DNA of 64,000 nt from NCBI GenBank assembly GCA_024743315.1, contig JANSWU010000006.1:248001-312000 (forward strand), read 5' to 3'. This DNA is from Hyphomonadaceae bacterium. Its GTDB lineage: Bacteria; Pseudomonadota; Alphaproteobacteria; Caulobacterales; Hyphomonadaceae. The translations under genes and the position numbers were made by a program. The notes under the pieces are model-generated. The model was not told the origin of the DNA and did no database searches. It was given only the letters and a program-made list of their open reading frames with translations. Shown one piece after another: positions 40,606 to 55,335 of this stretch. Within the stretch, counting starts at the first letter, position 1. Every line of letters starts with the position of its first letter.

Positions 40606-41588
40606 GCCCGCTTGGTGATCTTGATCGCCATTTTATTGCCCTTGCGCCCCATACGGCCCTCAAAGGCGGGCTCGCCGTCACGGTCTCCAGAAAGCAATTC
40701 CACCGGCTGATCACCCGGCAATCCCAGCAACAGGGTCGAGCCAGCTTTTAGCGCTGTAATGCGGCTGAGTGGAACAGATAGGCTCGCCAGGCGTGCAGTC
40801 ACCAAAGCTGTGATCGGCACGGCGGGGGCTTCGGGCCTATCAGCGAACAATTCATGCACGTCGAGCGGTGATTGGATCACTGCCAGGTCCGTGTGCAGGC
40901 CTGGCGCTTCAACGGAGAATTCAGACACGGTGACTTCGTGCGCGGGCAACAAACTGCTGACATATGGCACATCCGTTTCAATCGACTGAAGGCGCCATTC
41001 CGGCTCAAGGGCTTGTCCGAATGGCACAAGCAATTGTTCCAAAAGTGCACAATCAATGGCGCTAAGCGACCAGCCATCGCCGATCCGCCCTGTCGATCCA
41101 CGCGCACCGCAGGCGCGGGCAATAATCGCATCGGCGAGCAAGGGCGGTAGACAAATCAAGGCGCGAATGTCTGCTTCGCTCGGACCAATACATGCGATCG
41201 CGCTGGATTTGCCATTCAACAATCCGGACATGTCTTCGCGTTTAATGGTCGCCGACTGGCTGGAAACGATCGCAGCTTTCAGGCCCGTCCCGGCGCCAAG
41301 CGCACGAGACAAGCGCGCCCCAAGAATGCGATCGCGTTCAAGCTGTTCCGGGTTACTTGTGAGCTCGTGTACATCAAATGAGGGTGTGGGCCGAGGCTCG
41401 ACGTGTTCCGGTACTTCCACCGCCGGGGCATCAAGGTTTGGGCGCAACAAGGCTTCAATCTCGGCGGCGCTCAATACGCCGCGCGCAGTTGGAAAAACAT
41501 GGTCCTCCTCGCGCTCGATCACAGCAGTCTTATCACTGGCATCCATCTGCCAGTCATCCTCCTGTTTGCTGTCGGGACCGTTCCGCAT
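40587..41588 (-). CDS. fliM: diverged flagellar motor switch protein FliM
   Basis: 333 residues (319 if the internal ATG at 41546 with AGGAGG upstream is used). RGVLSAAEIEALLRP matches the FliM N-terminal helix that binds phospho-CheY, though it sits about 35 residues in. ATIKREDMSGLL, LICLPPLLADAIIARACG and SAIDCALLEQLLVPFGQAL follow the FliM middle domain, and the end (ITALKAGSTLLLGLPGDQPVELLSGDRD, in part) is the SpoA/FliN-like domain. Identity with FliM is weak in the middle; a paralogue is possible. CtrA-like boxes are 35-59 bp upstream. Confidence 0.8.
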   Translation of the reverse strand: MRNGPDSKQEDDWQMDASDKTAVIEREEDHVFPTARGVLSAAEIEALLRPNLDAPAVEVPEHVEPRPTPSFDVHELTSNPEQLERDRILGARLSRALGAGTGLKAAIVSSQSATIKREDMSGLLNGKSSAIACIGPSEADIRALICLPPLLADAIIARACGARGSTGRIGDGWSLSAIDCALLEQLLVPFGQALEPEWRLQSIETDVPYVSSLLPAHEVTVSEFSVEAPGLHTDLAVIQSPLDVHELFADRPEAPAVPITALVTARLASLSVPLSRITALKAGSTLLLGLPGDQPVELLSGDRDGEPAFEGRMGRKGNKMAIKITKRARTFKP

Positions 41589-41622
41589 TCTGCACCTGTC
41601 ACCAGTGAAAGCTTATCAGTGC

Positions 41623-41647
41623 GTTAACACGGTTAATGAAGCGTTAG
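41623..41647 (-). promoter_or_regulatory. CtrA-like box cluster upstream of fliM
   Basis: Read on the minus strand, 41647-41632 gives CTAA-N7-TTAAC, one mismatch from the CtrA consensus TTAA-N7-TTAAC, and a second GTTAAC follows at 41623-41628. Position (35-59 bp before the longer start) suits activation of the fliM promoter. Confidence 0.55.
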
Positions 41648-41679
41648 GATTTTGGAGTCCGTGTAGACAGATTCGCTGC

Positions 41680-42096
41680 CTAATCGTCGCGCACCACGCG
41701 CTCATTGCGCTCATGGCGTTCCTGCGCCTCGAGGCTGAGCGTGGCGGTCGGACGGGCTTCGAGGCGGCGCAAACCGATTGGCTCGCCTGTATCATCGCAA
41801 TAACCATAAGTGCCTTCGTCGATCCGCCGGATCGCGGCATCGATCTTTGAGATCAGTTTACGCTGGCGATCGCGGGTGCGCAGCTCTAGCGCCTTGTCGC
41901 TTTCCGCGGACGCACGATCCACGAGATCGGGGTGGTTGGACGATTCCGCGCGAAGATTGCCAATCGTGACTTTCGCGCCGTCAAGGATATCGGCCTTCCA
42001 GTCTTCGAGCTTTTTCCGGAAGTAAGCTTTCTGCTTACTGTTCATGAATTCCTCGTCGTCCGACGGCGTGTAGCCATTGAGTTCGTAGTCGCCCAT
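41680..42096 (-). CDS. dksA: RNA polymerase-binding protein DksA
   Basis: 138 residues from ATG at 42096, with GAGG about 9 bases before. The coiled-coil part (KAYFRKKLEDWKADILDGA onward) is followed by EGTYGYCDDTGEPIGLRRLEARPTA and TLSLEAQERHERNER (family blocks). Only the first of the four zinc Cys of enterobacterial DksA remains (CDDT...SLEA), as in other alphaproteobacterial DksA. It modulates transcription initiation with ppGpp. Divergent from the next membrane protein gene. Confidence 0.95.
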   Translation of the reverse strand: MGDYELNGYTPSDDEEFMNSKQKAYFRKKLEDWKADILDGAKVTIGNLRAESSNHPDLVDRASAESDKALELRTRDRQRKLISKIDAAIRRIDEGTYGYCDDTGEPIGLRRLEARPTATLSLEAQERHERNERVVRDD

Positions 42097-42329
42097 GGAA
42101 TCAAATCCTCTACCGAGTTTTGCGGCCCTATACTGCGGACCCGCTGGATAGGCAATCGCAATAATCAGACCAATTAGCCGCATACCTACTCCGAATTGTG
42201 GCGCTCGCTGGGCTCGGACAAGGCTTTTGCAGTTTGACCGGTAACGAAGACTTGATTTCATCCACGTCTCTGTGCGCTAAAGGGAATGGCGAAGCTGCGG
42301 GCGTGAGAAGACAGGAACGGGCCGAGTAT

Positions 42330-43622
42330 ATGACCTCCCGGTGGAGACAACGTGAAGTCCAGCGGCCATCCACCTGGCGACAATCCCTATTGTTCAACAG
42401 TTTGATCCTGTTGCTACCCATCTTCGCAGCGCGGATCGTGATTGCCGCGTTCACTTCTGACATCGCAACTGACCCACTAAGCTTGGAAGCGCGGACTGAA
42501 ACGCGCCAGGAAATCGATGCTGAATTTCAAAGCTTGGTGATTCCAAACGGGACAGAACGCCAGGCTTGGGCCGGACGGATTGATCAGATGCTGGATGAGC
42601 GGGCTTTTTCAGCGGCGCGGGGCTATTTGCTCGCGGCTCCCCTGATGCTCAACAAACAGGATTCAGCTGCAGTGCTCGCGGCCGCAGATGCGGAAAGTTC
42701 AGGCAGCCGAGACCAACGCCTGGCCCGCGCCGCGCTGCTCTTCCTGCCAGAGGAATTGCGCGCCAGCTATCAACGAACCACGGCGCCGCCGCCGCCGGTT
42801 GACCTTCCAGACGAAGACTCTCCAGACAGCAGCGTGGCCGCGGGTGATCTCGCCGGTGCAGACGAAGAACGCCCCGATACGCCTCGAGCGACGGGTGATT
42901 CGGTGCGCCTAACCCCGATCACCGAACCCTTCGCTGCGCCACGATCTTTCTTCATGCTGGGCGACCCAGCTGATTTGACCCGGCGCTCGCAACAATGGCT
43001 GGCGGGTGAGCCCGTCGACAGTCTGCAATTGCGATTGCGTGCCCTCGGTCTGCTCAATCAAGAAGATCCCAATCCAGAAGCTCAAGCGATATTTGAGAGC
43101 GCCTCCATTTTGCGTGCCGCCCATCGGGCTGGCCGCTTGAACGATCGCTTTGTCGGCTATCTCGGAAGCCGGATCGAGGATGCCTTGCCCGAAGCGGTAT
43201 TGCGCGAAGAACTGACAAAGGCGTTCGAGCCTGTCATGACCACTGAAGCCCGCACCGTTCAGGTCATCGCCGCTTTTGAAACCGCGTTGCAGCCGGAAGC
43301 GAAAGAGCGCTTGGCGCGGGACATGATGATCATTGCGCGGATCGCCGAGCTGACCAGTTCAACCGGCGCGATTACTTTGGTCGAATTGGCCACCACGCCA
43401 GAAGATATGCGCCGCGCGCTGCTGCTTTCCGAGGCGGGTGGGCACCGCTCGGTTGCCCTGGCCCGCGAAATGGGGCCTGAAGTGCTTGGCCTGGCGCAAA
43501 TCGGCGTTAAATGGAGCCGTAATCTTGTCTTCCAGGTCATGGGCCTAATGGCGCTCGGCATGGCCCTGATTTGGACCACGCTGTCGGCCTTGACCCAAGC
43601 TGAAGCGATCCGCTTGCGCTAA
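42330..43622 (+). CDS. bitopic-type membrane protein of unknown family
   Basis: 430 residues from ATG at 42330 (a start at 42198 is open but unsupported). One membrane helix near residues 20-43 and one near the C-terminus (VFQVMGLMALGMALIWTTL); between them about 360 residues, mostly helical, with an acidic Pro-rich linker (APPPPVDLPDEDSPDSS). The large part should lie outside the cytoplasm. Not recognised. Its neighbours (DksA, FliM, MarC, FlbT) hint at motility or envelope but prove nothing. The 233-bp region before it shows no other gene. Stop overlaps convergent marC by 4 bp. Confidence 0.7.
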   Translation: MTSRWRQREVQRPSTWRQSLLFNSLILLLPIFAARIVIAAFTSDIATDPLSLEARTETRQEIDAEFQSLVIPNGTERQAWAGRIDQMLDERAFSAARGYLLAAPLMLNKQDSAAVLAAADAESSGSRDQRLARAALLFLPEELRASYQRTTAPPPPVDLPDEDSPDSSVAAGDLAGADEERPDTPRATGDSVRLTPITEPFAAPRSFFMLGDPADLTRRSQQWLAGEPVDSLQLRLRALGLLNQEDPNPEAQAIFESASILRAAHRAGRLNDRFVGYLGSRIEDALPEAVLREELTKAFEPVMTTEARTVQVIAAFETALQPEAKERLARDMMIIARIAELTSSTGAITLVELATTPEDMRRALLLSEAGGHRSVALAREMGPEVLGLAQIGVKWSRNLVFQVMGLMALGMALIWTTLSALTQAEAIRLR

Positions 43623-44269
43623 AGGCCGAACGCGCCCTTGATCCCGTCAATCAGGAGCTGAACTGACAAAGCCGCCAGGATCACACCGAAGATCCGAGTA
43701 ATCGCCCCGGCAATGCTCTCGCCCATGGCTTTGACCAGAGGACCGGCGGCGAGGAAGACCATCAAACAGATCAGCATGTTTGCTCCGATCGCGCTCAGCA
43801 CAGCGCTTTTGGCAATCCAATCTTCATGCTGAGACATATACAGCATGGCGGTTGCAATCGATCCGGGTCCAGCCAGCATCGGAATACCGATTGGAAAGAC
43901 TGAGACATCATCGAGGTGTTCCTTGGTGTCCTCAACATCTGCGAGAACAGAGTCGGCGCGGTTTTCGCGGCGTTCCGTGCGTTTCTCAAACACCATATCG
44001 AGCGCGATGAGGAACAGGAGCACACCACCTGCAGCGCGAAAAGCATCGATCGTAATGTGCAACTGATCGAGCAGCCAGGCCCCGAAAAAGGCAAAGCCAA
44101 ATATGATCAGCGTGCCGACAATCACTGACCGGATAGCCATGGACCGGCGATAGCTGGCCGGTCCGCGCGCCGTCAGCGAAGCGAATACGGGCGCAACACC
44201 GGGCGCATCAATCAATACGAAGAACGTAACGAATGAGGCCAGAAAAATTGGAATGAATTCGCCGGGCAT
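43619..44269 (-). CDS. marC: MarC/YchE-family membrane protein
   Basis: 216 residues, six membrane helices. FFVLIDAPGVAPVFASLT matches the family N-terminus, AGGVLLFLIALDMVFEKRTE and IPMLAGPGSIATAMLYMS are conserved blocks. Despite the name, MarC proteins have no proven role in multiple antibiotic resistance. GAGGGAG precedes the ATG. Confidence 0.93.
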   Translation of the reverse strand: MPGEFIPIFLASFVTFFVLIDAPGVAPVFASLTARGPASYRRSMAIRSVIVGTLIIFGFAFFGAWLLDQLHITIDAFRAAGGVLLFLIALDMVFEKRTERRENRADSVLADVEDTKEHLDDVSVFPIGIPMLAGPGSIATAMLYMSQHEDWIAKSAVLSAIGANMLICLMVFLAAGPLVKAMGESIAGAITRIFGVILAALSVQLLIDGIKGAFGL

Positions 44270-44303
44270 GATGCGGCTCCCTCAAAAAACTGAAGGCAGG
44301 CCC

Positions 44304-44615
44304 TTATCCCTGATCTTTCAGCGCGTCGAGGATAGCGGCCACATCGGGATGCATGTCGGGTTTGCCAGAACGCATAGGAACGACCGTAGGCGCGATTTCG
44401 CCCGATGAAAGCGACAGGATCATGCGATGTCCGCGCAGGCGCTGTAACAGGCCCTGCAAGCCCTTAACCCCATCCGCGCGCAGGGTTTTGCCGTCGCCGA
44501 TCTCAACACAAATATTGTCTGGCGCGGTGCCGCCTTCGATCATGGCAATGCCATCATCAAGCGATACAATCGGAGGAGTTTCGGAAAGCTCTTTCATACT
44601 GGAAGTGTCAGCCAT
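44304..44615 (-). CDS. small protein coupled to flbT, unknown family
   Basis: 103 residues from ATG at 44615. It overlaps the end of flbT by 8 bp in another frame, and a GGAGG Shine-Dalgarno lies inside flbT just before it, so it is translated with flbT. The sequence (VSLDDGIAMIEGGTAPDNIC, KTLRADGVKGLQGLLQRLRG, DVAAILDALKDQG) looks like a small alpha/beta protein without signal or membrane helix. I do not recognise it. A role in flagellar control is inferred only from coupling. Confidence 0.7.
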   Translation of the reverse strand: MADTSSMKELSETPPIVSLDDGIAMIEGGTAPDNICVEIGDGKTLRADGVKGLQGLLQRLRGHRMILSLSSGEIAPTVVPMRSGKPDMHPDVAAILDALKDQG

Positions 44616-44994
44616 TCCCCGCCTCCGCCGCCTTGAGAAGTTTGCGGCACAAGGAAAGCGCTTGATACGTTTCGCCAGCAGCACACGCCGTCGAAATCTT
44701 GATAAGTTGCTCGCGCTCGTCCGCGCTGTCTGTTGTATTCAGAACGGCGGCAATCGCTGTCACCGTTTGATCGTAAAGCTGCCCCTCGGTTTCGCCGGTC
44801 AGGTACATTTGCATGACCGCGAAATAAAGATGCTCTTCCGGGCTTTCAGTGGCCTCTGGCTCGAGCACGTCTTTTTGTCGGAGCACGCGCGCCTGATTTT
44901 GCAACAAAATCGTGCCACGTCTGTCACCATTGCGAAGCACAGCACCGTTCACGACGACCGCTTCCTTAGGCTTCAGAGACAGTTTGAGTGGCAT
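44608..44994 (-). CDS. flbT: flagellin synthesis regulator FlbT
   Basis: 128 residues from ATG at 44994 with AAGGAG before it. LKLSLKPKEAVVVNGAVLRNGDRRGTILLQNQ (family block, here in two overlapping parts), VLRQKDVLEPE and YFAVMQMYLTGE are typical of FlbT, which binds flagellin mRNA leaders and limits flagellin synthesis in Caulobacter. The usual partner flaF and flagellin genes are not here. A CtrA half-site lies 37-46 bp upstream. Confidence 0.92.
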   Translation of the reverse strand: MPLKLSLKPKEAVVVNGAVLRNGDRRGTILLQNQARVLRQKDVLEPEATESPEEHLYFAVMQMYLTGETEGQLYDQTVTAIAAVLNTTDSADEREQLIKISTACAAGETYQALSLCRKLLKAAEAGNG

Positions 44995-45030
44995 GATCCA
45001 CGCTCCTTGATCGTAAAAAAATACGCTCAA

Positions 45031-45040
45031 ATGGTTAACG
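45031..45040 (-). promoter_or_regulatory. CtrA half-site upstream of flbT
   Basis: ATGGTTAACG on the plus strand reads CGTTAACCAT on the minus strand, containing the CtrA half-site TTAACCAT, 37-46 bp before the flbT start. The second half is not conserved. The remainder of the 223-bp region to moxR shows nothing recognisable. Confidence 0.4.
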
Positions 45041-45217
45041 CAGACTTTCAATTTCGTAACGTCGCACCGAAACCCCAGCACAAACAGATGCTTAGATACT
45101 CCCGGATCACGCTGAATAGATTCGCTGCAGCGAATCAGTGCCTTCCCGCGCGTTAGTCCTTGCTTCTGAAGGTCGGGGGCTTATCCTTAGCGTAAACGTA
45201 AACAGTGAGGCCCTCCC

Positions 45218-46087
45218 ATGCGCTTTGAAGGCACCGAAAACTATGTCGCAACCGATGATCTGCGTGTCGCGGTCAATGCCGCGATTGAATTGGAGCGCCC
45301 GCTCCTGATCAAAGGTGAACCTGGTACGGGCAAGACCGTGCTTGCGATTGAAGTCGCCAAGGCGTTGGATTGCGAACTGATAGAATGGCACATCAAATCG
45401 ACTACGAAAGCGGCTCAGGGTCTTTACGAGTATGACGCGGTGTCGCGCCTGCGTGATGGTCAGATGGGCGAAGAGCGTGCCAAGGACGTCAAGAATTACA
45501 TCAAGAAGGGCAAACTGTGGGAGGCCTTCACCGCCAAGAAACGCCCCATCTTGCTGATCGACGAGATCGACAAAGCCGACATCGAATTCCCAAACGATTT
45601 GCTGCAAGAACTCGATCGCATGGAGTTTTACGTCTATGAGACCGATGAAACGATCAAAGCCAAGCAGCGCCCGATTGTGATCATCACCTCGAACAATGAG
45701 AAAGAATTGCCCGACGCCTTCCTGCGTCGCTGCTTCTTCCACTTCATCAAATTCCCGGACGAGCAGACGATGAAAGAAATTGTCGACGTCCACTATCCCG
45801 GCATCAAGGAAAAGCTCGTGTCTGATGCGCTGACGACGTTTTATTCCATGCGCGAAGTGCCAGGTATGAAGAAAAAACCATCGACGTCAGAACTGCTGGA
45901 TTGGCTGAAACTGTTGATGAATGAGGATGTGGATCTCGAAACCTTGCGTGAGCAGGATCCAGAGAAACTCACCCCGCCGCTGCATGGGGCATTGCTCAAG
46001 AATGAGCAGGACGTTGCCCTGTTTGAGCGTCTGGCTTTCCTCAATCGTCGCCAATCCGGCCCAAGCCCACGCGGCCCGGCAGGCTAA
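45218..46087 (+). CDS. MoxR-family AAA+ ATPase
   Basis: 289 residues. Walker A GEPGTGKT (about 34), Walker B PILLIDEIDKAD (about 108), sensor 1 IVIITSNNEKELPDAFLRR with the Arg finger. MoxR ATPases act as chaperones, often with a VWA-domain partner encoded next to them; the gene that follows here is on the other strand (tlyA), so no partner is visible. Stop overlaps convergent tlyA by 4 bp. Confidence 0.93.
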   Translation: MRFEGTENYVATDDLRVAVNAAIELERPLLIKGEPGTGKTVLAIEVAKALDCELIEWHIKSTTKAAQGLYEYDAVSRLRDGQMGEERAKDVKNYIKKGKLWEAFTAKKRPILLIDEIDKADIEFPNDLLQELDRMEFYVYETDETIKAKQRPIVIITSNNEKELPDAFLRRCFFHFIKFPDEQTMKEIVDVHYPGIKEKLVSDALTTFYSMREVPGMKKKPSTSELLDWLKLLMNEDVDLETLREQDPEKLTPPLHGALLKNEQDVALFERLAFLNRRQSGPSPRGPAG

Positions 46088-46815
46088 GCTTTTACTGCGT
46101 AGATCAAGCGCTCGGCATTGCCGTCGCCGCCCTTGATTGGGCTGTTGGCGCGGGCGTGCACGCTCCAGCCCTGATTGGATAGCCAGTCGCAGAATGTATC
46201 TTCAGCGCGCTCTGTGGCGGCGGTATCGGTGACGATCCCGCCTTTGCCGACATATTCGCGACCAACCTCAAATTGGGGTTTGAACAGCGCGATGAGGTCC
46301 GCGTTCTGAGCCGCAAATGAGAGCGGCGTGCCGAGCAGTTTGTTCAGAGAAATGAAACTCGCATCACAGACCAGGATTTGCGGCGTCCCAACCTGATCCT
46401 GCGTTAAGCCGCGCGCATCGGTGGCTTCCAGTGAGATGACGCGCGGGTCTGCCCTGAGGCGGGCGTGTAATTGATCTCGCCCAACATCGACGGCGACCAC
46501 CGAACTAGCGCCGTTTTCCAACAGGACCTCAGTGAATCCCCCCGTCGAGGCGCCAATATCAAGACAGTGTGCGCCGCGCGGGTCAATGTCGAATTCCAAA
46601 AGCGCCGCCGCCAGCTTGAGTCCGGCCCGGGAAACCCAGGGATGCGCGGGCGCAGCCTCAATCTTGGCGGTGGCAGAAATCTTCTCAGAGGCTTTTGTCA
46701 GAACGCGTCCGCTAACCGTCACACGGCCCGCGTCGATCGCCGCCTGGGCACTCGCCCGGCTCTGGAAATGGCCAAGCGCGACAAGCACCTTGTCTGCGCG
46801 ATCCTGCTTATCCAT
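46084..46815 (-). CDS. tlyA: TlyA-family rRNA methyltransferase
   Basis: 243 residues from ATG at 46815. N-terminal S4 RNA-binding domain (DRADKVLVALGHFQSRASAQ, then DAGRVTVSGRVLTKAS), then an FtsJ-like methyltransferase with LDIGASTGGFTEVLLENGA, a VAVDVGRDQL acidic site and LFKPQFEVGREYVGKGG. In other bacteria TlyA 2'-O-methylates cytidines in 16S and 23S rRNA. In many alphaproteobacteria it lies by dxs; here it does not. Confidence 0.93.
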   Translation of the reverse strand: MDKQDRADKVLVALGHFQSRASAQAAIDAGRVTVSGRVLTKASEKISATAKIEAAPAHPWVSRAGLKLAAALLEFDIDPRGAHCLDIGASTGGFTEVLLENGASSVVAVDVGRDQLHARLRADPRVISLEATDARGLTQDQVGTPQILVCDASFISLNKLLGTPLSFAAQNADLIALFKPQFEVGREYVGKGGIVTDTAATERAEDTFCDWLSNQGWSVHARANSPIKGGDGNAERLIYAVKA

Positions 46816-46892
46816 CACTGCAAATGGCTCCGTGCCCCGCAAACCAGGTGTCCCGCGTTTGCCTTAAGCGTCTGTTTTGAGGTCCGTAAAGT

Positions 46893-48539
46893 CTAATCAA
46901 GCGACTTCGCGACGCGAAAGCCGATGCGTTCATCACGGCGACTGGCAGGCTCGGCCCCGCGCATGGCGGAGCGAACATAAGATGGCACCTTGCTGTAATC
47001 ACCACCGCGGACCGGTCGAGAGCACCCTTCACTGCCGGGTATGGCAGCACCGGTCTTCGGCAACCCCGCATAGGAATTGCGGAAGCAATCGGCCGTCCAT
47101 TCGGCGACATTGCCATGCACCTCATGCAGGCCAAACGCATTCGGGGGGTAAGAACCAACAGCCGTAGGCATACGCAAATACGGCCCACCCACAGGCTTTC
47201 GGTCATAACTGCGCTGGCCATTATAATTAGCCTGTTCGCTGGATATTCCATCGCCCGTCGAAAACGGGGTCGTGGTTCCAGCCCGCGCGGCATATTCCCA
47301 TTCTGCCTCTGACAGCAGGCGATAGGGTGTGCCCTCAACTTTCGAGTTGAGCCAGGCAATATAGGCTTCGGCATCGCCTGCATTCACATTCATCACGGGT
47401 CGGTCATCAAGGGCCCAGAGGGGATCTTTGCGCAGGTCTGCAGCAGGATCATGCGCGCATCCACCATCGGCGATGCAGGCACGATATTCCCCGAAAGAGA
47501 CTTCGAACTTGCCGGCTGCGAAGCGCTCGATGGTGACTTCTCTTTGCGGGCCTTCATTGTCAAATCGACCCGACTCATTGGCGGGCGAGCCCATTATGAA
47601 CGTGCCTTCTGGAATCACCACCATTTCTGGACAGGCGTCGCAGTCTCGAAAGGTCGAGAAGTCGGAGAGGATTGGGTCCGCTTCTGGCGCCGGAGGTGTT
47701 TGATCACTTGCGCCCATGTCCCGCCCCGTCGCGCCAGGCTCGATACTGATAGCTGTGTTGATCACCGCCGGCGCGGGTCTCGAACAATCGCCAAAACAGA
47801 AATCGTCGCCAATCAGGCCCGAATTATAGAAGGGCGTTTGTGCCCCACCCGTCGCGCGATTGACCTGATCAGCGACCCGTTTGAAGACCTGTTCGGCGAT
47901 CAACCCATCCTGGCGGATGACCTGCGCCAGGGCCGCTGTATAGGGCGAATTGCTTCCAGCCCCGTCTGTGGCGGTAAAGCCAGGCTCTGTCGAGTACGAC
48001 ACCAATAGGCCCCGCGACCTTGCCACCGGAGCGAGACCACCGGATCCGGCCGACCGGCTCGAGCTTGGCAGCGGATTGTTTCGGCAGGCATCGAGGATCA
48101 CGAAATTCACGCCATTGCCGGCCGATCGTACATGCTGCAGGGCCTGACCAAGCCGCGGCGCTTGCGCCCAGATGTCCTGTTCGGTGCGCGCATTCGTATC
48201 CACGGGAATGAGGTAATTATAGCCTTCTGATTGGACACCGTGACCGGCAAAATATATCAAACCCACCGCATCCGGTCCGGCCTGGCGAAGCCGCGCACCA
48301 TGCCCCGCGAACGCATCTTCCATTTCGTCTTCTGTGGCATTGAGCAACAACGTAACCTGAAAGCCAACATCTTCGAGCGCGCCTTTCATCAAGCGGGCAT
48401 CGTTTTCCGGATTCAACAGGGCCCAGCCTGTGGTTTCATATTTGCTGTTACCGATGACCAGCGCGATGCGGTCTTCCGCCATCGCGAGCACCGGAAACAA
48501 GATTGCCAGACAAATCGAAATCAGCGCGCGCATCATCAT
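46893..48539 (-). CDS. exported caspase-like protein fused to a SUMF1/FGE-type domain
   Basis: 548 residues. Signal peptide ending at about AMA (21). Residues 23-250 are a peptidase C14 (caspase-like) domain: [11 protein letters not shown], catalytic His100 in [10 protein letters not shown] and Cys152 in [11 protein letters not shown]. Residues about 305-545 are a SUMF1-type (C-type lectin-like) domain: [41 protein letters not shown], and [19 protein letters not shown]. The two Cys that make formylglycine in true FGE are absent (K and V at those places), so this part probably binds rather than catalyses. GGAGTG precedes the ATG run. A lipoprotein gene follows the same strand upstream. Confidence 0.93.
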
Positions 48540-48682
48540 TTGCGTTCACTCCATTTGGTGCTTTTTGGTGATCTGTCCCACACCAACGCACTCGCCCCCG
48601 CTCCCAGACTTGAGCATATTACAGAGCCGTCATCCAGAGGTATTGTGTCAGGCTTTGGACACCCGAGAAGAACTCGCGGTGA

Positions 48683-49975
48683 TTATTGGCGCACAGGCGG
48701 TTGTTCAGGTGGGGCTTCGGGCAGTGGCTCAGGCACGACCGCCGCCGCCAAGGGTGGCTCATCGAATGGCGATAATGTGCGCATTGCAGGCGCAGAGGCC
48801 GCACTGCTCGATGCCCCAATATTCGAAGTCAGAAATTCTGCGTCTTCGACGGTCAGCCTGCCATTAGCGACCCCCCGCATGATTTCAGTCCGGGCGCGCT
48901 GCATCTCGACCTGCATCTCATTCGCGTTCTCGAGCCGCGTAATATAAGTGTCCATAACCTGCTTGCAGCGATCCGACAGAGCCGTCTCGCCTTCCGTATC
49001 GACATAGCGCAAATGCTCGAAACAGAGCTGCACGCCATAGTCGTTCTGGATCAGCGACATGGTGATGTCGCGGACGGCCTGGGCAACCGCGTATGAAGGT
49101 GGATAGGCTGGCGTAGCTGGCCACGACCCCGTCACGCCGCCGGCGCTGGAATCGCGGGCTGAGGGCGCTGTATCCGCGAGGCGATTCGAGGTTTCTTCTG
49201 TGGCCGCCGCCGCGGCTTGTGAGTTCGACAAAGCGCGGCGCCGGGCCCGCAAATCACTGATTTCCTGACCGCGGCGTTCAACCGCTTCGCCGGAGCATCC
49301 CGGGGTCTCCGGGCTGCCAAAACACTGATCGTTCACGCCTTCGAGTACCGCGATTTCATCTTCGACTTGAAGGATTTCGTTCGACAGACGCGTTTGCTCC
49401 GCAGAAGCGATCGCGGCGCGTTGCAAATATTGCTCGCGAAAGTCCATGCCGCTGCCCGAAGAGGCGCTGACCACGGCATCGCCGCCTTTGACTGCGCCGG
49501 TGAGCTGCTCGATTGCAAGGAGTGCAATCATATTGGTCTGGAACCGTCGCAGCATGATCGAATACTGCTCCTCGGACAGGCCGTTCATATAAGCTTCGCA
49601 GACGCGGTAGAATCCGTCACGCAGCGTCTGAATGGTCTGTGTCCGCAAACCGATATTTGCAGCGGCTTCAGATACACCGCCCTCCGCCGATACCGCATTG
49701 GAAATATCTGAGACGCTGACACCGGCCTGAGCGGCAATCGCGGACAGCGCGTCTGGCGCGGGTTCGGCGCAAACAACACGAATATCTTTGTCAGATCTCT
49801 TATTCGACAGGACCGCCCGCTGCTCGGCGTCAATGAACACTCCGGCCGGTGCAAATCCTTTTCCATTCAGCCCAGACCCCAGCGTCTCTTTCTTATTGAC
49901 GGCGGCGAGATTTCCCACCGACGCGCACGCCGAAAGGCAGAGTGCGCTGAGCGCCAACATGCTGATACGAAACAT
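48683..49975 (-). CDS. coiled-coil lipoprotein upstream of the caspase-like gene, unknown family
   Basis: 430 residues, lipobox LSAC (Cys17). Residues about 60-190 are helical with VCAEP and RVCEAYMNGLSEEQYSIMLRR (shortened), then a coiled coil (SAEQTRLSNEILQVEDEIAV; VERRGQEISDLRARRRALS) split by a Cys pair (NDQCFGSPETPGCSG), a Ser/Ala-rich linker, a second helical part, and a Pro-rich tail (PEPLPEAPPEQPPV). Not recognised. A 143-bp gap separates it from the caspase-like gene downstream, so cotranscription is possible, not certain. GGAGGA precedes the ATG. Confidence 0.75.
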   Translation of the reverse strand: MFRISMLALSALCLSACASVGNLAAVNKKETLGSGLNGKGFAPAGVFIDAEQRAVLSNKRSDKDIRVVCAEPAPDALSAIAAQAGVSVSDISNAVSAEGGVSEAAANIGLRTQTIQTLRDGFYRVCEAYMNGLSEEQYSIMLRRFQTNMIALLAIEQLTGAVKGGDAVVSASSGSGMDFREQYLQRAAIASAEQTRLSNEILQVEDEIAVLEGVNDQCFGSPETPGCSGEAVERRGQEISDLRARRRALSNSQAAAAATEETSNRLADTAPSARDSSAGGVTGSWPATPAYPPSYAVAQAVRDITMSLIQNDYGVQLCFEHLRYVDTEGETALSDRCKQVMDTYITRLENANEMQVEMQRARTEIMRGVANGRLTVEDAEFLTSNIGASSSAASAPAMRTLSPFDEPPLAAAVVPEPLPEAPPEQPPVRQ

Positions 49976-50051
49976 AACGTCCTCCTCCGAATTGGGAGAG
50001 GACGCGAGATTATGAATTTAGTCAAGCTGGACAGTGCCTTATAGGGGAATC

Positions 50052-50762
50052 TTAAGGCAGCGCATCAAACCACAGTTGAAGCGCCTGTGTCTCCCGCAGG
50101 CGATTGGCGCGAACCTGCATTGCTTCGGCATCTTCACCCCATTGCTCGATTTGCCAGTCTTCATCCACACACGAAGCGGATAAAGCCTGTCCGGCATCCA
50201 GCGCCCCGCGCTCCACCGCCAGCGCGAGAACGGCTGAGCCCAAAAGACTGCAGCCCCATGTCAGCGCCGTGAGCCGAAAATCATCAAGCCCGAGCGCATA
50301 GTCTCTGACGGCATCCAGGCTTGCTTGCGGTTGCGGGCTCGCCATCAACCCTATTACGGGCACAAGAACGACCCCAAGTTCCTTACCAACCCATTCGCGC
50401 CAGGGCTGCCACGCCGCCTCTTGTCGTTCGCGCAGCTCGCTCGGCGTTTCGGCAAGATAACAGGTCACGTCGGTGCCGGCATATCGCGACAGCTCATCCG
50501 CCAAGTCTGCTCGTGTTTCAGGCGTTCGATCCAAAGCGACATTGGCGAGGCGGGTGAGGGTCATACCTTGCAGATCGAGGATTTCGCCTTGAGTGTGCCA
50601 CTCATGCGCGATGGCGCCGGCCAGCGCCTCGCTGGGCAGGATAAGCGGGGCTTTCGCGGGCGTCTTGATCGGTCGGCCATCAAGCTCGACCGCGAACCCG
50701 GCTTCAGAGGGTGCAACCGAAGCCACTTTGTAAAAACGCTTTGGCAATGTGACTTTGTCCAT
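50052..50762 (-). CDS. ATP12-family F1-ATPase assembly chaperone
   Basis: 236 residues, full length. KRFYKVASVAPSEAGFAVELDGRP (in part), TPAKAPLILPSEALAGAIAHEW and LTALTWGCSLLGSAVLALAV are ATP12 signatures. In mitochondria ATP12 binds the F1 alpha subunit; the alphaproteobacterial homologue is presumed to do the same. Its ATG overlaps the stop of the HAD gene by 1 base. Confidence 0.93.
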   Translation of the reverse strand: MDKVTLPKRFYKVASVAPSEAGFAVELDGRPIKTPAKAPLILPSEALAGAIAHEWHTQGEILDLQGMTLTRLANVALDRTPETRADLADELSRYAGTDVTCYLAETPSELRERQEAAWQPWREWVGKELGVVLVPVIGLMASPQPQASLDAVRDYALGLDDFRLTALTWGCSLLGSAVLALAVERGALDAGQALSASCVDEDWQIEQWGEDAEAMQVRANRLRETQALQLWFDALP

Positions 50763-51430
50763 CAGGCCACCTGTGCTGCAAATTGATCAAGGCTGGTATT
50801 CAGCGTGGTGAAATCATGATGAATTTCGTGTGCGCCAACTTGGCTAAGTTCCTGTGCCTCGCCGAACCCCCAACTGACGCCAAGCGTGCGAATCCCAGCG
50901 TTCAATCCCATGCGGATATCATGCACCGCGTCGCCAATGATCAGAGATTGATGCGGCTCTGCCCCGAGCGCCGCCATCGCTTGTTCGCACATGAAGGGGT
51001 GCGGCTTGCCGGGCCCATCATCAGCACACCAGATTGTATCGAAATAGTCTTCCAGCGGATGCATCTCAAAAATGGCGCGGATCCCGCGATGCGATTTACC
51101 GGTGGCCATCGCGATCAACCAGCCATCTTGAGCCAGCCGATCGAGGGTCTCCTGCGCGCCTTCATAGAGCGGCTCTTTGAAATCCGCTTCCGCCCGCCGC
51201 GCCACAAAGGCCTGGCGATAGGCTTCGGTGAGCTTTGGAATATCCGTGCCTTCCGGCGCCAGGGTTCGGCAGGCTTCTTCCAAGCCAAGGCCAACAATCT
51301 TGCGGGTTTGCTCATAGGACGGCGGCGACAAATCCATGGATTCGAAACACCGCTCCATGGCGGTTTGGATCACCTCGCGGCTGTCCACGATGGTGCCGTC
51401 CATATCCCAGATGGCGAGTTTGAGAGTCAT
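50762..51430 (-). CDS. HAD-family phosphatase linked to ATP12
   Basis: 222 residues of HAD subfamily IA. LAIWDMDGTIVDSREV is motif I, MATGKSHRGI motif II, DDGPGKPHPFMCEQA motif III, and LIIGDAVHDIRMGLNAGI motif IV. Phosphoglycolate-phosphatase-like; a HAD gene next to ATP12 (often after rluC) is a common alphaproteobacterial arrangement. Substrate unknown. Confidence 0.93.
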   Translation of the reverse strand: MTLKLAIWDMDGTIVDSREVIQTAMERCFESMDLSPPSYEQTRKIVGLGLEEACRTLAPEGTDIPKLTEAYRQAFVARRAEADFKEPLYEGAQETLDRLAQDGWLIAMATGKSHRGIRAIFEMHPLEDYFDTIWCADDGPGKPHPFMCEQAMAALGAEPHQSLIIGDAVHDIRMGLNAGIRTLGVSWGFGEAQELSQVGAHEIHHDFTTLNTSLDQFAAQVA

Positions 51431-51439
51431 GCGCGCCGT

Positions 51440-51826
51440 TTAGGCGGCAGCGGCTTTTCTCGCAACCAGTCTTTGCCAGATCAGGAAGAGCGGCACGCTG
51501 AGTTCGATGATCATGCCGGCAAATTGGCGATCCATACCAGGCCCAATGGTGGAATACGACAAGTAGCGCGCCAGCCCGCCCAGAAAAATGGCGGCGCAAA
51601 TGAAAGCCAGCAGAGGGCCTTGCGTTTCAACGTTGGGTATGGCCCACCAGATCAACATGGTGACCAACAGATAGATGGCCGACAAATACCGAAACTGATT
51701 GTCGAGCGCAGCAGAGAATCCGCCTTCCGGCATATATGCCGCGGCGCCATTCAGGATCCCTGTCACGGCAAAGAAAAGCGGCACGAGAGAGAATATCCCG
51801 AGCGCGATTTGTAACCCCAATTTCAT
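51440..51826 (-). CDS. DUF4345-type membrane protein
   Basis: 128 residues with four hydrophobic segments; ALDNQFRYLSAIYLLVTMLIWW and FLGGLARYLSYSTIGPGMDRQ resemble the DUF4345 pattern. Function unknown. It sits between the SDR and HAD genes with gaps of 3 and 9 bp, so it is in the same operon. Confidence 0.8.
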   Translation of the reverse strand: MKLGLQIALGIFSLVPLFFAVTGILNGAAAYMPEGGFSAALDNQFRYLSAIYLLVTMLIWWAIPNVETQGPLLAFICAAIFLGGLARYLSYSTIGPGMDRQFAGMIIELSVPLFLIWQRLVARKAAAA

Positions 51827-51829
51827 CGA

Positions 51830-52639
51830 TCAAACCTCCACGATGCTGGACGAGATCTCCTCTGCGCGGGTTTCAAACGCCGCCTTGGTCTCGCCGCCAT
51901 CGGTGGCACAGACCAGATAGCCGCCGCCTTGTCCAATCTTGCTCATGATCGCCGGCCACATGACTTCCGGGCGCTTGGCCTCGTCCCACATTTTGGAAAT
52001 GGAAGGGTCCATATGTCGAACGCCGCCAAACCGGTCCGGGCGGGCTTTCGCCCCGTCCCAGATCTTGGTGTTGAGCAAGCCGGGGCAAAGGATCGTGGTG
52101 TCAATGCCCTGCCCGGCCAGTTCGCCGCGCAGAGCCTCCCCCACCGCAAAGGTGCCGTGCTTGGTCGTCGCATAAAGCGGAAAATCGCCCTCAGGAGACC
52201 TGAGCGATGCCGACGAAGCTGTGATCCCGACATGGCGGGGTCCCTCAGCGTCTGCCATCAGGGGCACAAAGGCCTGCGCCGTCCAGATCACGCCCCGAAC
52301 ATTGACGTCAAAGCCCCATTCGATGGCCTTGGCTTTGCCGGTGAGGATCGGCGAGCCAACCCCGACCCCAGCATTGATCCAGAGCAGGCTGAGCGGTCCG
52401 TGGGCTTTCGCCGCTTCGGCTGCCGCCAGGCAGGCATCGCGGTCCGAAACGTCAAAGACCAGCGGAAACGCACCATCGCCAAGCTCCCCTGCAACACGCT
52501 CTGCCGCCTCTGCGCGAATGTCCTGCACGCCGACCCGCAAGCCCGCCTCGGCCAGCTTCCGCGCCAGCATTTCACCAATCCCGTCCCCTGCCCCGGTCAC
52601 GATGGCGAGTTTGTCCTTATAGGCGCTCAGGTCAGTCAT
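51830..52639 (-). CDS. short-chain dehydrogenase/reductase
   Basis: 269 residues. AIVTGAGDGIGEMLARKL is the nucleotide-binding motif; WINAGVGVG replaces the common NNAG; catalytic Ser in VGITASSASL and Tyr/Lys in LYATTKHGTFAVGEAL. GVQDIR after beta 2 carries an Asp favouring NAD. Substrate unknown. Its start lies inside the end of the beta-propeller lipoprotein gene (8-bp overlap). Confidence 0.92.
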   Translation of the reverse strand: MTDLSAYKDKLAIVTGAGDGIGEMLARKLAEAGLRVGVQDIRAEAAERVAGELGDGAFPLVFDVSDRDACLAAAEAAKAHGPLSLLWINAGVGVGSPILTGKAKAIEWGFDVNVRGVIWTAQAFVPLMADAEGPRHVGITASSASLRSPEGDFPLYATTKHGTFAVGEALRGELAGQGIDTTILCPGLLNTKIWDGAKARPDRFGGVRHMDPSISKMWDEAKRPEVMWPAIMSKIGQGGGYLVCATDGGETKAAFETRAEEISSSIVEV

Positions 52640-53975
52640 TCTCGGGGATCCTTACCAAATCATGCGGGCCGCGCATCACGGCCTGGGTTTTGTTTTGCGC
52701 GATCAATTGGCCATCCTCAATCGAAAAGAAATCTATAAAGCCGCGTAAGCGATCCGGGCCTTTGCGGCGATGGAAGGTGGCAACCGCGAGATTGGTTCCG
52801 GTCTCGTCGAAAATTACGTCTTCCGGGAGCACGCCTGAGGCGCGGATCTCGTCCAGTTTCTCAATCGCGCCGGTCTCGGGATCTAGTGAAAGCAGCATCA
52901 ATGAATATTGCCGTCGATGTGGCCAGAAGGCGAGCGGCGGTAATTGCGGTAGATAGGTCCGCTCCATGGCAATCGAAGCGATCAGCGTCCCATCATCTGA
53001 GAGCTCAACGCCTTCCGCGAACCGGCCAACTCGAACCTGATCAATCACGCGGGCAGGTGTGGTATCCGACGCCGGCGCGATTGAGAAGACTTGTCCGCCG
53101 CGCTGGGTCAGCATGGCGATGGAGGAGTCATAAGCATTTACATCCGTGACGATCAGGTGTTTGCCATTCGGGGTCCATTTCATCGTCGAGAGACGCACGC
53201 CAAATTCGATCGGGTCGCCAATCTTCTCGACTTCTTGCGGTCGCTGGTCGAGATCCAGGATCATGCGATAGAATTGTACGCGCTTATTCCCGATATTGGC
53301 GGCAAAAGTGACACCGTCTGGCGCGACGACGATCGTGCGAACACGCTTCTCCGCGTCTTCCGGCAAGTAAGGTGCTTCGAGATCAAACACCCGGCGATCC
53401 TCGACCGTGCCGTCTGGCAACACTGAAAACGTAACCAGTTCCGCGCCTGTGTCTTCAGTCGCGATATAGAGCAGCGGGAAAGCCTCCGGCGCTTCTACCG
53501 ATTGAGGGACTGAGCCAATGGCTTCGACCATCTGGTGCTGGACCAGTTCGGTCTCATCGACCGCAAACACGAATAGCCGCGAGGCGGCTGGCATGTCGTA
53601 ATAGACATTCTCGACCTGCTCGATGCCGGGGTCGAGATCGCCTCGCGTTTCAACGACATAGGCAAACCGGCCATCTGGCGAGATATCGAGAATTTGCGGC
53701 CAGGAAATCACGGAATTGGGCGCTGCAACCGCCGCTTTTGGCTGACCCGCTTCAAACAGCGTCAATTCATCCTGCATACCTGGAAACGGTTCCAGTCGGT
53801 TATCGGCATAAGCGGTGCCTGCCATACTGGCATCCGAAAGCGCCAGGAAGCGCCCCTCAAACGTCCCGGGCGTCTCTGCAAAGCCCGGATCATCACTCGA
53901 AAAGTCTCCGAGCGACGCGCATGCGGCGAGGCCAATCACAAGACCGCCTGACAGGCCCCATCTCAACATCGACAT
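52632..53975 (-). CDS. beta-propeller lipoprotein, unknown function
   Basis: 447 residues from ATG at 53975; lipobox LAAC (Cys19). The rest has several YVTN/WD-like blades (ILDISPDGRFAYVVETRG, TIVVAPDGVTFAANIGNKRV, MKWTPNGKHLIVTDVNAY, VIFDETGTNLAVATFHRRKG), so a periplasmic beta-propeller of the lactonase-like class is likely. No catalytic residues assigned. First gene of the operon that runs to ATP12, divergent from a TetR gene. Confidence 0.8.
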   Translation of the reverse strand: MSMLRWGLSGGLVIGLAACASLGDFSSDDPGFAETPGTFEGRFLALSDASMAGTAYADNRLEPFPGMQDELTLFEAGQPKAAVAAPNSVISWPQILDISPDGRFAYVVETRGDLDPGIEQVENVYYDMPAASRLFVFAVDETELVQHQMVEAIGSVPQSVEAPEAFPLLYIATEDTGAELVTFSVLPDGTVEDRRVFDLEAPYLPEDAEKRVRTIVVAPDGVTFAANIGNKRVQFYRMILDLDQRPQEVEKIGDPIEFGVRLSTMKWTPNGKHLIVTDVNAYDSSIAMLTQRGGQVFSIAPASDTTPARVIDQVRVGRFAEGVELSDDGTLIASIAMERTYLPQLPPLAFWPHRRQYSLMLLSLDPETGAIEKLDEIRASGVLPEDVIFDETGTNLAVATFHRRKGPDRLRGFIDFFSIEDGQLIAQNKTQAVMRGPHDLVRIPEND

Positions 53976-54001
53976 ATCTATCTCCAAATCTCTTTCCCTA
54001 T

Positions 54002-54019
54002 CGAAAATGAACCTTTTCG
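54002..54019. promoter_or_regulatory. dyad between TetR gene and beta-propeller operon
   Basis: CGAAAA at 54002-54007 and TTTTCG at 54014-54019 are perfect reverse complements with a 6-bp spacer. The site is 27-44 bp upstream of the lipoprotein operon start and 36 bp or more before the TetR start at 54055, the usual place for an autoregulatory TetR operator. Confidence 0.5.
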
Positions 54020-54054
54020 TTTACAAGTCAAGGGAATTGCGCGACTTTGTGTCT

Positions 54055-54681
54055 ATGACGCTGGAAGACTTCAGAAAAAATCGCTCTCAAGCGAAGCAAG
54101 CGGCGATCCTGGACGCTGCGATGGCGCTGTTCCGGCAAGCCGGATTCGCGGGCGCGAGCATGGAAGATATCGCCAAGAAAGCTGCGGTTTCGACGGCCAC
54201 CCTGTACCGGCACTTCCGCTCAAAGACCGCCCTGTTCGAAGCAGTGGCGACGGCCAGCATCGAAGCATTGGAAACGCAGATCAGCCAAATCAATAGCACG
54301 GACCCGCGCACCCGTCTCAGCGCCCTTGCCCATGCTTATGCTGGGCTTCTGGCGCAGCCAAATACGATTGGATTGATGCGAATGCTGGTCTCGGAGACCG
54401 GACGCGATTCCGACTTGGCCACCTGGTTTTACAACGCCATTAAGTCGCGGCTTGGAGATCATTTCGACCGCGCCGTTCAAGATTTGGACAAAGTTGGTCT
54501 GCTCGCAGAAGCGACGTTTGAGGTTGCGCCAGGACAGCTCCAAGGCATGATCGAGCACGCCATCCTGATGCGCGGGCTCATTCTTGGCGATGAAGCCGGG
54601 CCGGCTGCACCCGTAGAGCAACTCGCGGAAGACGCGCTGCGGACTTGGTCAGCGCGATGGATGAACGCGTCAGGGATATAG
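54055..54681 (+). CDS. TetR/AcrR-family transcriptional regulator
   Basis: 208 residues from ATG at 54055; an ATG at 54007 would place the dyad inside the gene and adds an unusual N-terminus. RSQAKQAAILDAAMALFRQAGFAGASMEDIAKKAAVSTATLYRHFRSK (helix-turn-helix, quoted only by its ends: RSQAKQ...YRHFRSK) is diagnostic. The C-terminal part (PNTIGLMRMLVSETGRDSDL) fits the TetR_C_7-like ligand domain. Its 3' end overlaps convergent pdxH by 12 bp. Confidence 0.92.
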   Translation: MTLEDFRKNRSQAKQAAILDAAMALFRQAGFAGASMEDIAKKAAVSTATLYRHFRSKTALFEAVATASIEALETQISQINSTDPRTRLSALAHAYAGLLAQPNTIGLMRMLVSETGRDSDLATWFYNAIKSRLGDHFDRAVQDLDKVGLLAEATFEVAPGQLQGMIEHAILMRGLILGDEAGPAAPVEQLAEDALRTWSARWMNASGI

Positions 54682-55335
54682 CCGCGTCTGCGTCCACGTC
54701 TCTCCCGATCGGATCAATTTGAGGCGATCATGCATGCGAAAGGCCTGATCCTGCCAGAATTCAAATTCGACCGGTTTCAGGCAATAGCCGCCCCAGTGCT
54801 CGGGGCGCGGAATATCATCATCATCGCCATAGATGGCGCTGATTTCGGCGACCCGTTGATTGAAGGTCTCTCGATCATCGAGCGGGCGTGACTGGTCAGA
54901 CGCAATCGCCGCGATCCGCGATTGCGGCGCGCGTTGGCTGAAATAGGTGTCAGACTGCTCAGACGTGCTTTTCGAAATCGCACCGCGAATACGGACCTGA
55001 CGGCGCAGGCTCTTCCAATGAAAACAAAGAGCGGCCTTGGGGTGCGCGGCAAGCTGCTGGCCCTTGGCGCTGTCATAATTGGTGTAGAATTGCAGGCCAT
55101 CCTCTGCATCAAGCCCGCGCAGCAGGACAATGCGGACATCCGGCAATCCATCGGCATCGACTGTGGCGAGCGACATGGCGGTCGGATCATTCGGTTCACT
55201 CGCATTGGCGTCCTGCAGCCAGGCCTCCAGTAAACCGAATGGGTTATCCGTGTCCGGGATCAGCGGGCGGTCGCCCTCGGCCGCATAATCAGCCGCACTG
55301 GGTGACTTTGGGATGGAAACGGGAACATCAGTCAT
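54670..55335 (-). CDS. pdxH: pyridoxamine/pyridoxine 5'-phosphate oxidase
   Basis: 221 residues from ATG at 55335. [48 protein letters not shown] and [17 protein letters not shown] are conserved PdxH blocks for FMN and substrate binding; the closing TRLYP is typical. It makes pyridoxal 5'-phosphate. Divergent from aroC over 93 bp. Confidence 0.97.

Follow-up and report, generated by a model that had tools for sequence, protein, structure and literature searches.

Proteins that join a caspase-like peptidase to a domain of the formylglycine-generating enzyme (FGE) type have been described several times, and the gene considered here is a further example; it lies in a 64,000-nucleotide stretch of a Hyphomonadaceae bacterium genome (contig JANSWU010000006.1, positions 248,001 to 312,000), hereafter the window, in whose numbering unprefixed positions are given. 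Papers are cited by their PubMed Central (PMC) numbers. In a survey of 671 prokaryotic metacaspases, 33 carried an FGE-sulfatase domain, which made it the fifth most widespread partner, and N-terminal helices were noted as possible signal peptides (PMC3501461). Five caspase-FGE sequences, with the same domain order as the window protein, appear in PMC4933709, and eight archaeal proteins with FGE-linked caspases in PMC6426788. The metacaspases of PMC3501461 and PMC4933709 have the same two Pfam domains as the window protein, and the passages of those two papers considered here do not report that this combination is both exported and devoid of the FGE cysteines. MaOC4 of Microcystis aeruginosa also has a caspase p20-type domain followed by a C-terminal homologue of sulfatase-modifying factor, and by 2017 one orthocaspase, MaOC1, had been characterised biochemically (PMC5756287); the window protein is likened to MaOC4 by description, not sequence, and differs from it in being alphaproteobacterial and probably exported. 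A sequence-only reading of the window had stated that caspase-SUMF1 fusions are known in bacteria, and the combination is indeed already published; the window gene is a clean new example of it and no surprise. A search of the open-licence literature turned up no functional study on caspase-FGE fusions that are exported, and a conserved, probably exported two-domain protein with an intact catalytic dyad and a well-modelled domain of recognition type offers a practical test case for exported bacterial caspases.

The gene and its parts are the following.

46893..48539, minus strand: caspase-FGE fusion, full coding sequence for 548 amino acids (open reading frame (ORF) call and Pfam)
48477..48539, minus strand: predicted signal peptide, residues 1-21, cleavage between AMA and E (by rule and eye; orthologue N-termini are alike)
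47784..48476, minus strand: caspase-like (C14) domain, residues 22-252, predicted MALT1-like fold (Pfam 1.7e-35; MALT1 3uo8_C, Z 27.0)
48240..48242, minus strand: catalytic His100 (His in 44/45 homologues)
48084..48086, minus strand: catalytic Cys152, in LDACRNNP (Cys in 44/45 homologues)
47658..47783, minus strand: linker, residues 253-294, fast-evolving (34-41% orthologue identity) and predicted disordered over 254-290 (predicted local distance difference test, pLDDT, <50)
46896..47657, minus strand: PvdO-like domain of the FGE/C-type-lectin fold, residues 295-548 (Pfam 9.8e-49; PvdO 5hha_A, Z 34.5)
46989..46991, minus strand: Lys517, replacing the first FGE catalytic Cys (alignment to human FGE and homologue columns)
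46974..46976, minus strand: Val522, replacing the second FGE catalytic Cys (same basis)

The ORF begins with ATG, and at E <=0.1 exactly two Pfam families are found in it, both far above cut-off: Peptidase_C14 (PF00656; 123.2 bits versus 21.4, residues 24-241) and FGE-sulfatase (166.7 bits versus 23.3, residues 303-545). The fusion of a caspase-like to a SUMF1-type domain, as first read from the sequence, is thus confirmed. Its G+C content is 58.7%, and four nearby genes lie at 59.6-60.7%. The two nearest orthologues (in genomes G010 and G024) are about 80% identical to it overall (caspase domain 90%, FGE-like domain 78%, linker 34-41%); the nonsynonymous distances to them (dN) are 0.147 and 0.150, against a saturated synonymous distance (dS) of about 2.4. 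Judged from these comparisons, the fusion is a real gene with both domains under purifying selection, and the domain scores, the dyad, the signal-like N-terminus and the low dN together place it far beyond chance. The best named relative found is a Hyphomonas jannaschiana protein (L045; family Hyphomonadaceae) with 56% identity.

We propose that the fusion is a cysteine protease of orthocaspase type that is exported, cuts after Arg or Lys and is guided by a PvdO-like domain serving in recognition; we give this an even chance of being right. A Sec signal peptide would take the protein into the periplasm, where the MALT1-like domain, with His100, Cys152 and an acidic S1 pocket (Asp47 and Asp150), would cut after Arg or Lys; for this step the fold is predicted and the residues are observed, and the activity and specificity are inferred from them. 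The PvdO-like domain, which lacks the formylglycine cysteines, would act as a recognition module that binds a ligand, an envelope protein or a complex, and the flexible linker may let it concentrate or trigger proteolysis at the bound site. A C-type-lectin/FGE domain has been proposed as the sensor in diversity-generating systems (PMC10907252).

The AlphaFold2 model, computed from a 40-row alignment, has two confident domains separated by the disordered linker (mean pLDDT 85.7; predicted template-modelling score, pTM, 0.55), and its halves match MALT1 and PvdO; structure prediction was one of the checks suggested in the sequence-only reading. By sequence, the best solved relative of the caspase half is MALT1 (1.2e-9). 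VIA-align, a comparison that covers Foldseek's own matches, superimposes residues 22-252 on MALT1 3uo8_C at Z 27.0 and 2.6 A over 212 aligned residues (24% identity); caspase-6 zymogens follow at Z of about 24-25, the MALT1 and caspase-6/7 folds together spanning Z 24-27, and in Foldseek itself MALT1 is listed from rank 7. The Asp, His and Cys positions of the MALT1 paracaspase are matched, but unlike MALT1 the fusion is bacterial, has a signal-like N-terminus and carries no death or Ig-like domain (Pfam, E <=0.1). The Pfam C14 match covers profile positions 2-227 of 233; what separates orthocaspases from metacaspases is the absence of a p10 domain, and the profile is not specific to p10. The NCBIfam model for the EACC1-associated caspase subfamily gave 41.1 bits, below its cut-off of 140.

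Residues 100 and 152 of the fusion are His and Cys, intact as had been claimed, and the dyad is present in 44 of 45 distinct caspase-domain homologues, a set that was collected by similarity to the window protein, includes it and consists partly of close relatives; the exception is a Methylobacterium protein (L047). Read by eye, 19 of 21 distinct two-domain fusions keep the dyad, and the two that have lost it (L047 and L117) are distant; loss in orthologues, which the sequence-only reading held would argue against its proposal, was not seen in the close ones. Among the same 45 homologues Asp150 is kept in all and Asp47 in 41. In the search of solved structures both align with Asp residues of MALT1, which we take to line its S1 pocket. 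Arg/Lys specificity is a fair inference from this acidic pattern, because Asp47 and Asp150 match MALT1 and because characterised C14 members other than caspases are stated in a review to prefer Arg or Lys at P1 owing to an acidic pocket (PMC5756287). As a separate observation, Arg162 (48054-48056), soon after the catalytic Cys, is Arg in 38 of the 45 homologues and Lys in three; it is a possible candidate for a self-cleavage site.

The formylglycine cysteines are indeed replaced, by Lys517 and Val522; across 112 related domains the two formylglycine columns hold the two-Cys motif in one (L044) and a single Cys in four. Elsewhere the same genome encodes a separate FGE (L155; match at C8:136591-137448) whose N-terminus is signal-like and whose motif is GGSYLCAASYC; it lies next to a sulfatase match (C8:137880-138866), one of five in the genome. 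With this two-Cys protein beside a sulfatase, a conventional FGE is present in the genome, and the domain linked to the caspase differs from it in being PvdO-like. Sulfatase activation by the fusion was rejected on the grounds of the Lys517/Val522 residues and of this two-Cys FGE beside a sulfatase gene.

PvdO of Pseudomonas aeruginosa is the closest solved relative of the FGE-like half by sequence (5e-45), ranks first in Foldseek and, as 5hha_A, superimposes on residues 292-547 at Z 34.5 and 2.0 A over 244 aligned residues (39% identity). The next folds are TvpA (2y3c, the protein of a diversity-generating retroelement, DGR) at Z 30.4 and the periplasmic ring protein PorK at Z 29.5; true FGEs (T. 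curvata, S. coelicolor and human) match at Z of about 28-30. PvdO shares the fold, has both FGE Cys positions replaced, as the fusion does, and works in the periplasm (PMC6206403). It differs in that its 286 amino acids align to the C-terminal half of the fusion alone, and the fusion falls short of the cut-off of the NCBIfam PvdO equivalog model (193.8 bits versus 500).

This kinship raises the alternative that the C-terminal domain is itself enzymatic, as a member of the PvdO/FGE superfamily that might, for instance, oxidise a secreted compound, with the caspase part regulating or processing it. Speaking for it, besides the sequence and fold scores, are the near-invariant residues of the domain (Arg511, Gly512, Gly513, Arg523, Arg527, Gly476, Asn477 and Glu480, each in >=90% of 40 rows), and the final oxidation step of the pyoverdine fluorophore depends on PvdO, which works in the periplasm (PMC6206403). 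However, the same source reports purified PvdO to be inactive and without detectable cofactor, the equivalog score is far below its cut-off, several relatives join the FGE-like domain to signalling effectors, and Pfam finds no siderophore family in 14 neighbouring ORFs, the rest of the genome not having been searched for pyoverdine genes. We consider such an enzyme unlikely. The fold of PorK suggests another possibility, that of a stress or housekeeping envelope protease, or a scaffold, in which the FGE-like domain, like PorK/GldK, has a mainly structural part and anchors the protease to an envelope complex. An NCBIfam GldK match (9.5e-25, under its cut-off) fits this, and sister caspases with OmpA (L131), TPR (L132) or WD40 (L137) domains would suit complex assembly; but no conserved neighbouring complex was found, and the gene occurs in three of 29 genomes of the genus. 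We regard such a protease or scaffold as quite unlikely. A role of the fusion in envelope turnover, one of the functions first suggested, is possible.

Export of the proposed protease is indicated by its N-terminus, which reads as a Sec signal peptide both by eye and by a hydrophobicity rule. Cys10 lies inside the signal-like segment and does not fit a lipobox, and the G010 and G024 orthologues have no Cys at that position. A home-made export rule, requiring a hydrophobic 12-mer and a small-residue cleavage motif just ahead of the domain, is passed by 43 of the 45 caspase-domain homologues, including all 19 fusions in that set. For comparison, 72 of 279 control ORFs pass within their first 30 residues and 95 of 279 within 46; the controls come from mechanical ORF calling, with spurious ORFs and the caspase genes among them. 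The weaker fusion L117 passes narrowly, and in the distant fusion L055 the caspase domain begins at residue 5, too close to the N-terminus for a signal peptide to fit. As far as N-termini can tell, members of this caspase subfamily typically look exported, and the fusion is probably exported. The periplasmic location first suggested stands in part: an export signal is likely, and the compartment is judged from the N-terminus and from relatives. A cytosolic location, which was to argue against it, is not indicated for any close orthologue. A periplasmic site also fits because one sister caspase (L131) ends in an OmpA domain (34.0 bits versus a cut-off of 27.2).

Several points weigh against the proposed guided protease. 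Its location depends on a signal peptide judged by rule and by eye, and of the six sister caspases tested for OmpA, two (L130 and L129, at 27.1 and 23.9 bits) are below the cut-off of 27.2 and three (L133, L134 and L143) have no listed match. The ligand and substrate are hypothetical and the activity is predicted, and the relative placement of the caspase and FGE-like domains is undefined in the model, as the pTM indicates. In conflict systems the FGE-type domain is listed among effectors, not sensors (PMC7159879), and PvdO is needed for an oxidation, so that a PvdO-like domain could be an enzyme and not a binder (PMC6206403). Finally, the conserved cysteine pairs of the FGE-like domain are, by their distribution, not specific to exported proteins. 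Over the 112 related domains, Cys is either present or absent at 300 and 303 together in 105 of 106 ungapped sequences, and the same holds for 355 and 361 in 111 of 111; the pair 485/506 co-occurs only if a few residues' slack is allowed (104/112), 69 sequences having Cys at 485 alone when read column by column. The 300/303 pair is kept in three Pfam-confirmed TIR fusions (L151, L152 and L159) and a kinase fusion (L079); these look cytosolic, and the pairs were rejected as proof of an oxidising compartment. Whether at 300/303, 355/361 or 485/506, disulfides, a metal site or a redox switch are all possible.

The FGE-like domain behaves as an exchangeable module, to judge from its partners, because related FGE domains are joined to TIR, protein kinase and caspase domains, a pattern that a recognition module would be expected to show. 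Two TIR-FGE proteins are encoded on contig C2 of the own genome (L151 and L152, with FGE domains 38% and 34% identical to that of the fusion), together with a TIR-nSTAND1 protein (L153) that has a weaker, partial FGE match; elsewhere the partners are TIR (L138 and L159), kinase (L079) or caspase (L127 and L158). The caspase domain, too, has various partners. The own genome (G000, 3.3 Mb) has seven caspase-domain matches, namely the window gene and six others:

C8:2109, C4:66917, C4:27615, C6:377512, C7:336974 and C7:295473: other caspase matches in the own genome

One of the seven is joined to FGE (window), one to Sel1 repeats (L148) and one to a cyclophilin-type prolyl isomerase (L146, 8.8e-23); in the remaining four, no partner scores above its Pfam cut-off. 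A broader reading is a large repertoire, unassigned in the literature searched, of MALT1-like Arg/Lys proteases that alphaproteobacteria would export into their envelope, with interchangeable C-terminal domains (PvdO-like, OmpA, TPR, WD40, Sel1 or cyclophilin) directing each of them; the PvdO-like module, found also on cytosolic-looking TIR effectors, would then recognise the same class of signal on either side of the inner membrane. We regard this generalisation as rather unlikely.

The surroundings of the fusion gene also differ between relatives, within one variable region:

46084-51430 in the window, with its counterparts in L125, L126 and L182-L186: locus with the variable slot between the lipoprotein and TlyA genes (locus comparison)

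The window and the seven relatives examined share the gene order ATP12, lipoprotein, slot, TlyA and differ in what the slot holds. The fusion stands alone in the window, is accompanied by a GST gene in L126, and by a GST gene and a 191-amino acid gene in L125. Slots without it hold a GST gene alone (L183), GST plus the 191-amino acid gene (L184), an RtcB gene (L186), or a 186- or 198-amino acid gene (L182 and L185), the first of these being a Cu/Zn superoxide dismutase. Pfam confirmed ATP12, TlyA (FtsJ plus S4) and an AAA gene in the window, and GST in L126. The lipoprotein gene upstream (48683-49975) has no Pfam family at E <=0.1; of 105 family genomes, 13 have some match to it and eight a strong one (E <=2.4e-184); three of these eight have the fusion at the locus and five do not. 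As an obligate partner the lipoprotein was accordingly rejected, and no conserved partner gene for the fusion was found in the locus comparisons examined.

Matches over both domains occur in three of the 29 genus genomes (G000, G010 and G024) and in one of another genus (G032); a further genome (G036) has both domains in one ORF, which brings the count to at least five among 61 genomes searched. Across the class, a draw of 385 genomes gave at least eight in which both domains were covered by a single match; the own genome is among these eight, and one of the eight contains two stop codons. This count is a lower bound, as only single-piece matches were taken and few candidates were scored per genome. 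The fusion gene is accessory and lineage-restricted, not core.

The sequence-only reading had also offered competition or regulated death as functions, that is, a secreted or surface weapon or a death effector whose caspase attacks neighbours or kills the producer. The patchy, accessory occurrence of the gene is what such an effector might show, and surface or fratricidal roles have been suggested for metacaspases with extracellular domains (PMC3501461). Against this, Pfam finds, two flagellar proteins aside, no toxin, immunity or secretion-system family in the 14 neighbouring ORFs, the lipoprotein gene upstream occurs independently of the fusion, and PADLOC returned its caspase model alone, over part of the domain (3.8e-12, residues 26-168). 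A weapon or death effector is very unlikely: the gene is accessory and sits in a variable slot, and nothing found speaks for a role as a toxin or in death. The observation behind the sequence-only reading is confirmed, and its interpretation is partly supported: the acidic, Arg/Lys-type S1 pattern fits a protease, whereas competition and regulated death are unsupported.

The 14 neighbouring ORFs comprise the lipoprotein, TlyA, ATP12 and MoxR-type AAA genes and ten others of the window. These ten further ORFs gave the Pfam families FliMN_C, MarC, FlbT, HAD hydrolase, DUF4345, short-chain dehydrogenase, a lactonase-type propeller and a TetR regulator, and two of the ten gave none. DGR variable proteins with orthocaspase and C-type-lectin domains have been described (PMC7517822), and the FGE-like half matches the TvpA fold. 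However, the genome (99.93% complete) has no RVT_1 match at E <=0.001, a search that gives matches in three of 14 controls, and no template/variable pair was recognised among the repeats listed for window 41000-55000 (the best 20 of 39 direct families and 25 of 44 inverted pairs), which are short and chance-like. A diversity-generating retroelement was rejected on the lack of an RVT_1 match.

Beyond TlyA, on the plus strand, lies a MoxR-type AAA gene (45218-46087), which is also present at all five fusion-less loci examined. A MoxR-vWA ternary conflict system at the locus is unlikely, and no vWA family was found by Pfam in the 14 neighbouring ORFs. In one locus of a relative (G022; L128, 7764-11959), an exported caspase gene faces, in convergent orientation, a VWA_CoxE gene and an AAA gene that resembles the MoxR-type gene of the window, an arrangement reminiscent of MoxR-vWA systems. 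A response-regulator-like gene lies within a few ORFs of an exported caspase there and at five other loci (L129, L130, L131, L133 and L134), identified by Pfam (Response_reg plus Trans_reg_C) in L128 and by BLAST in the other five.
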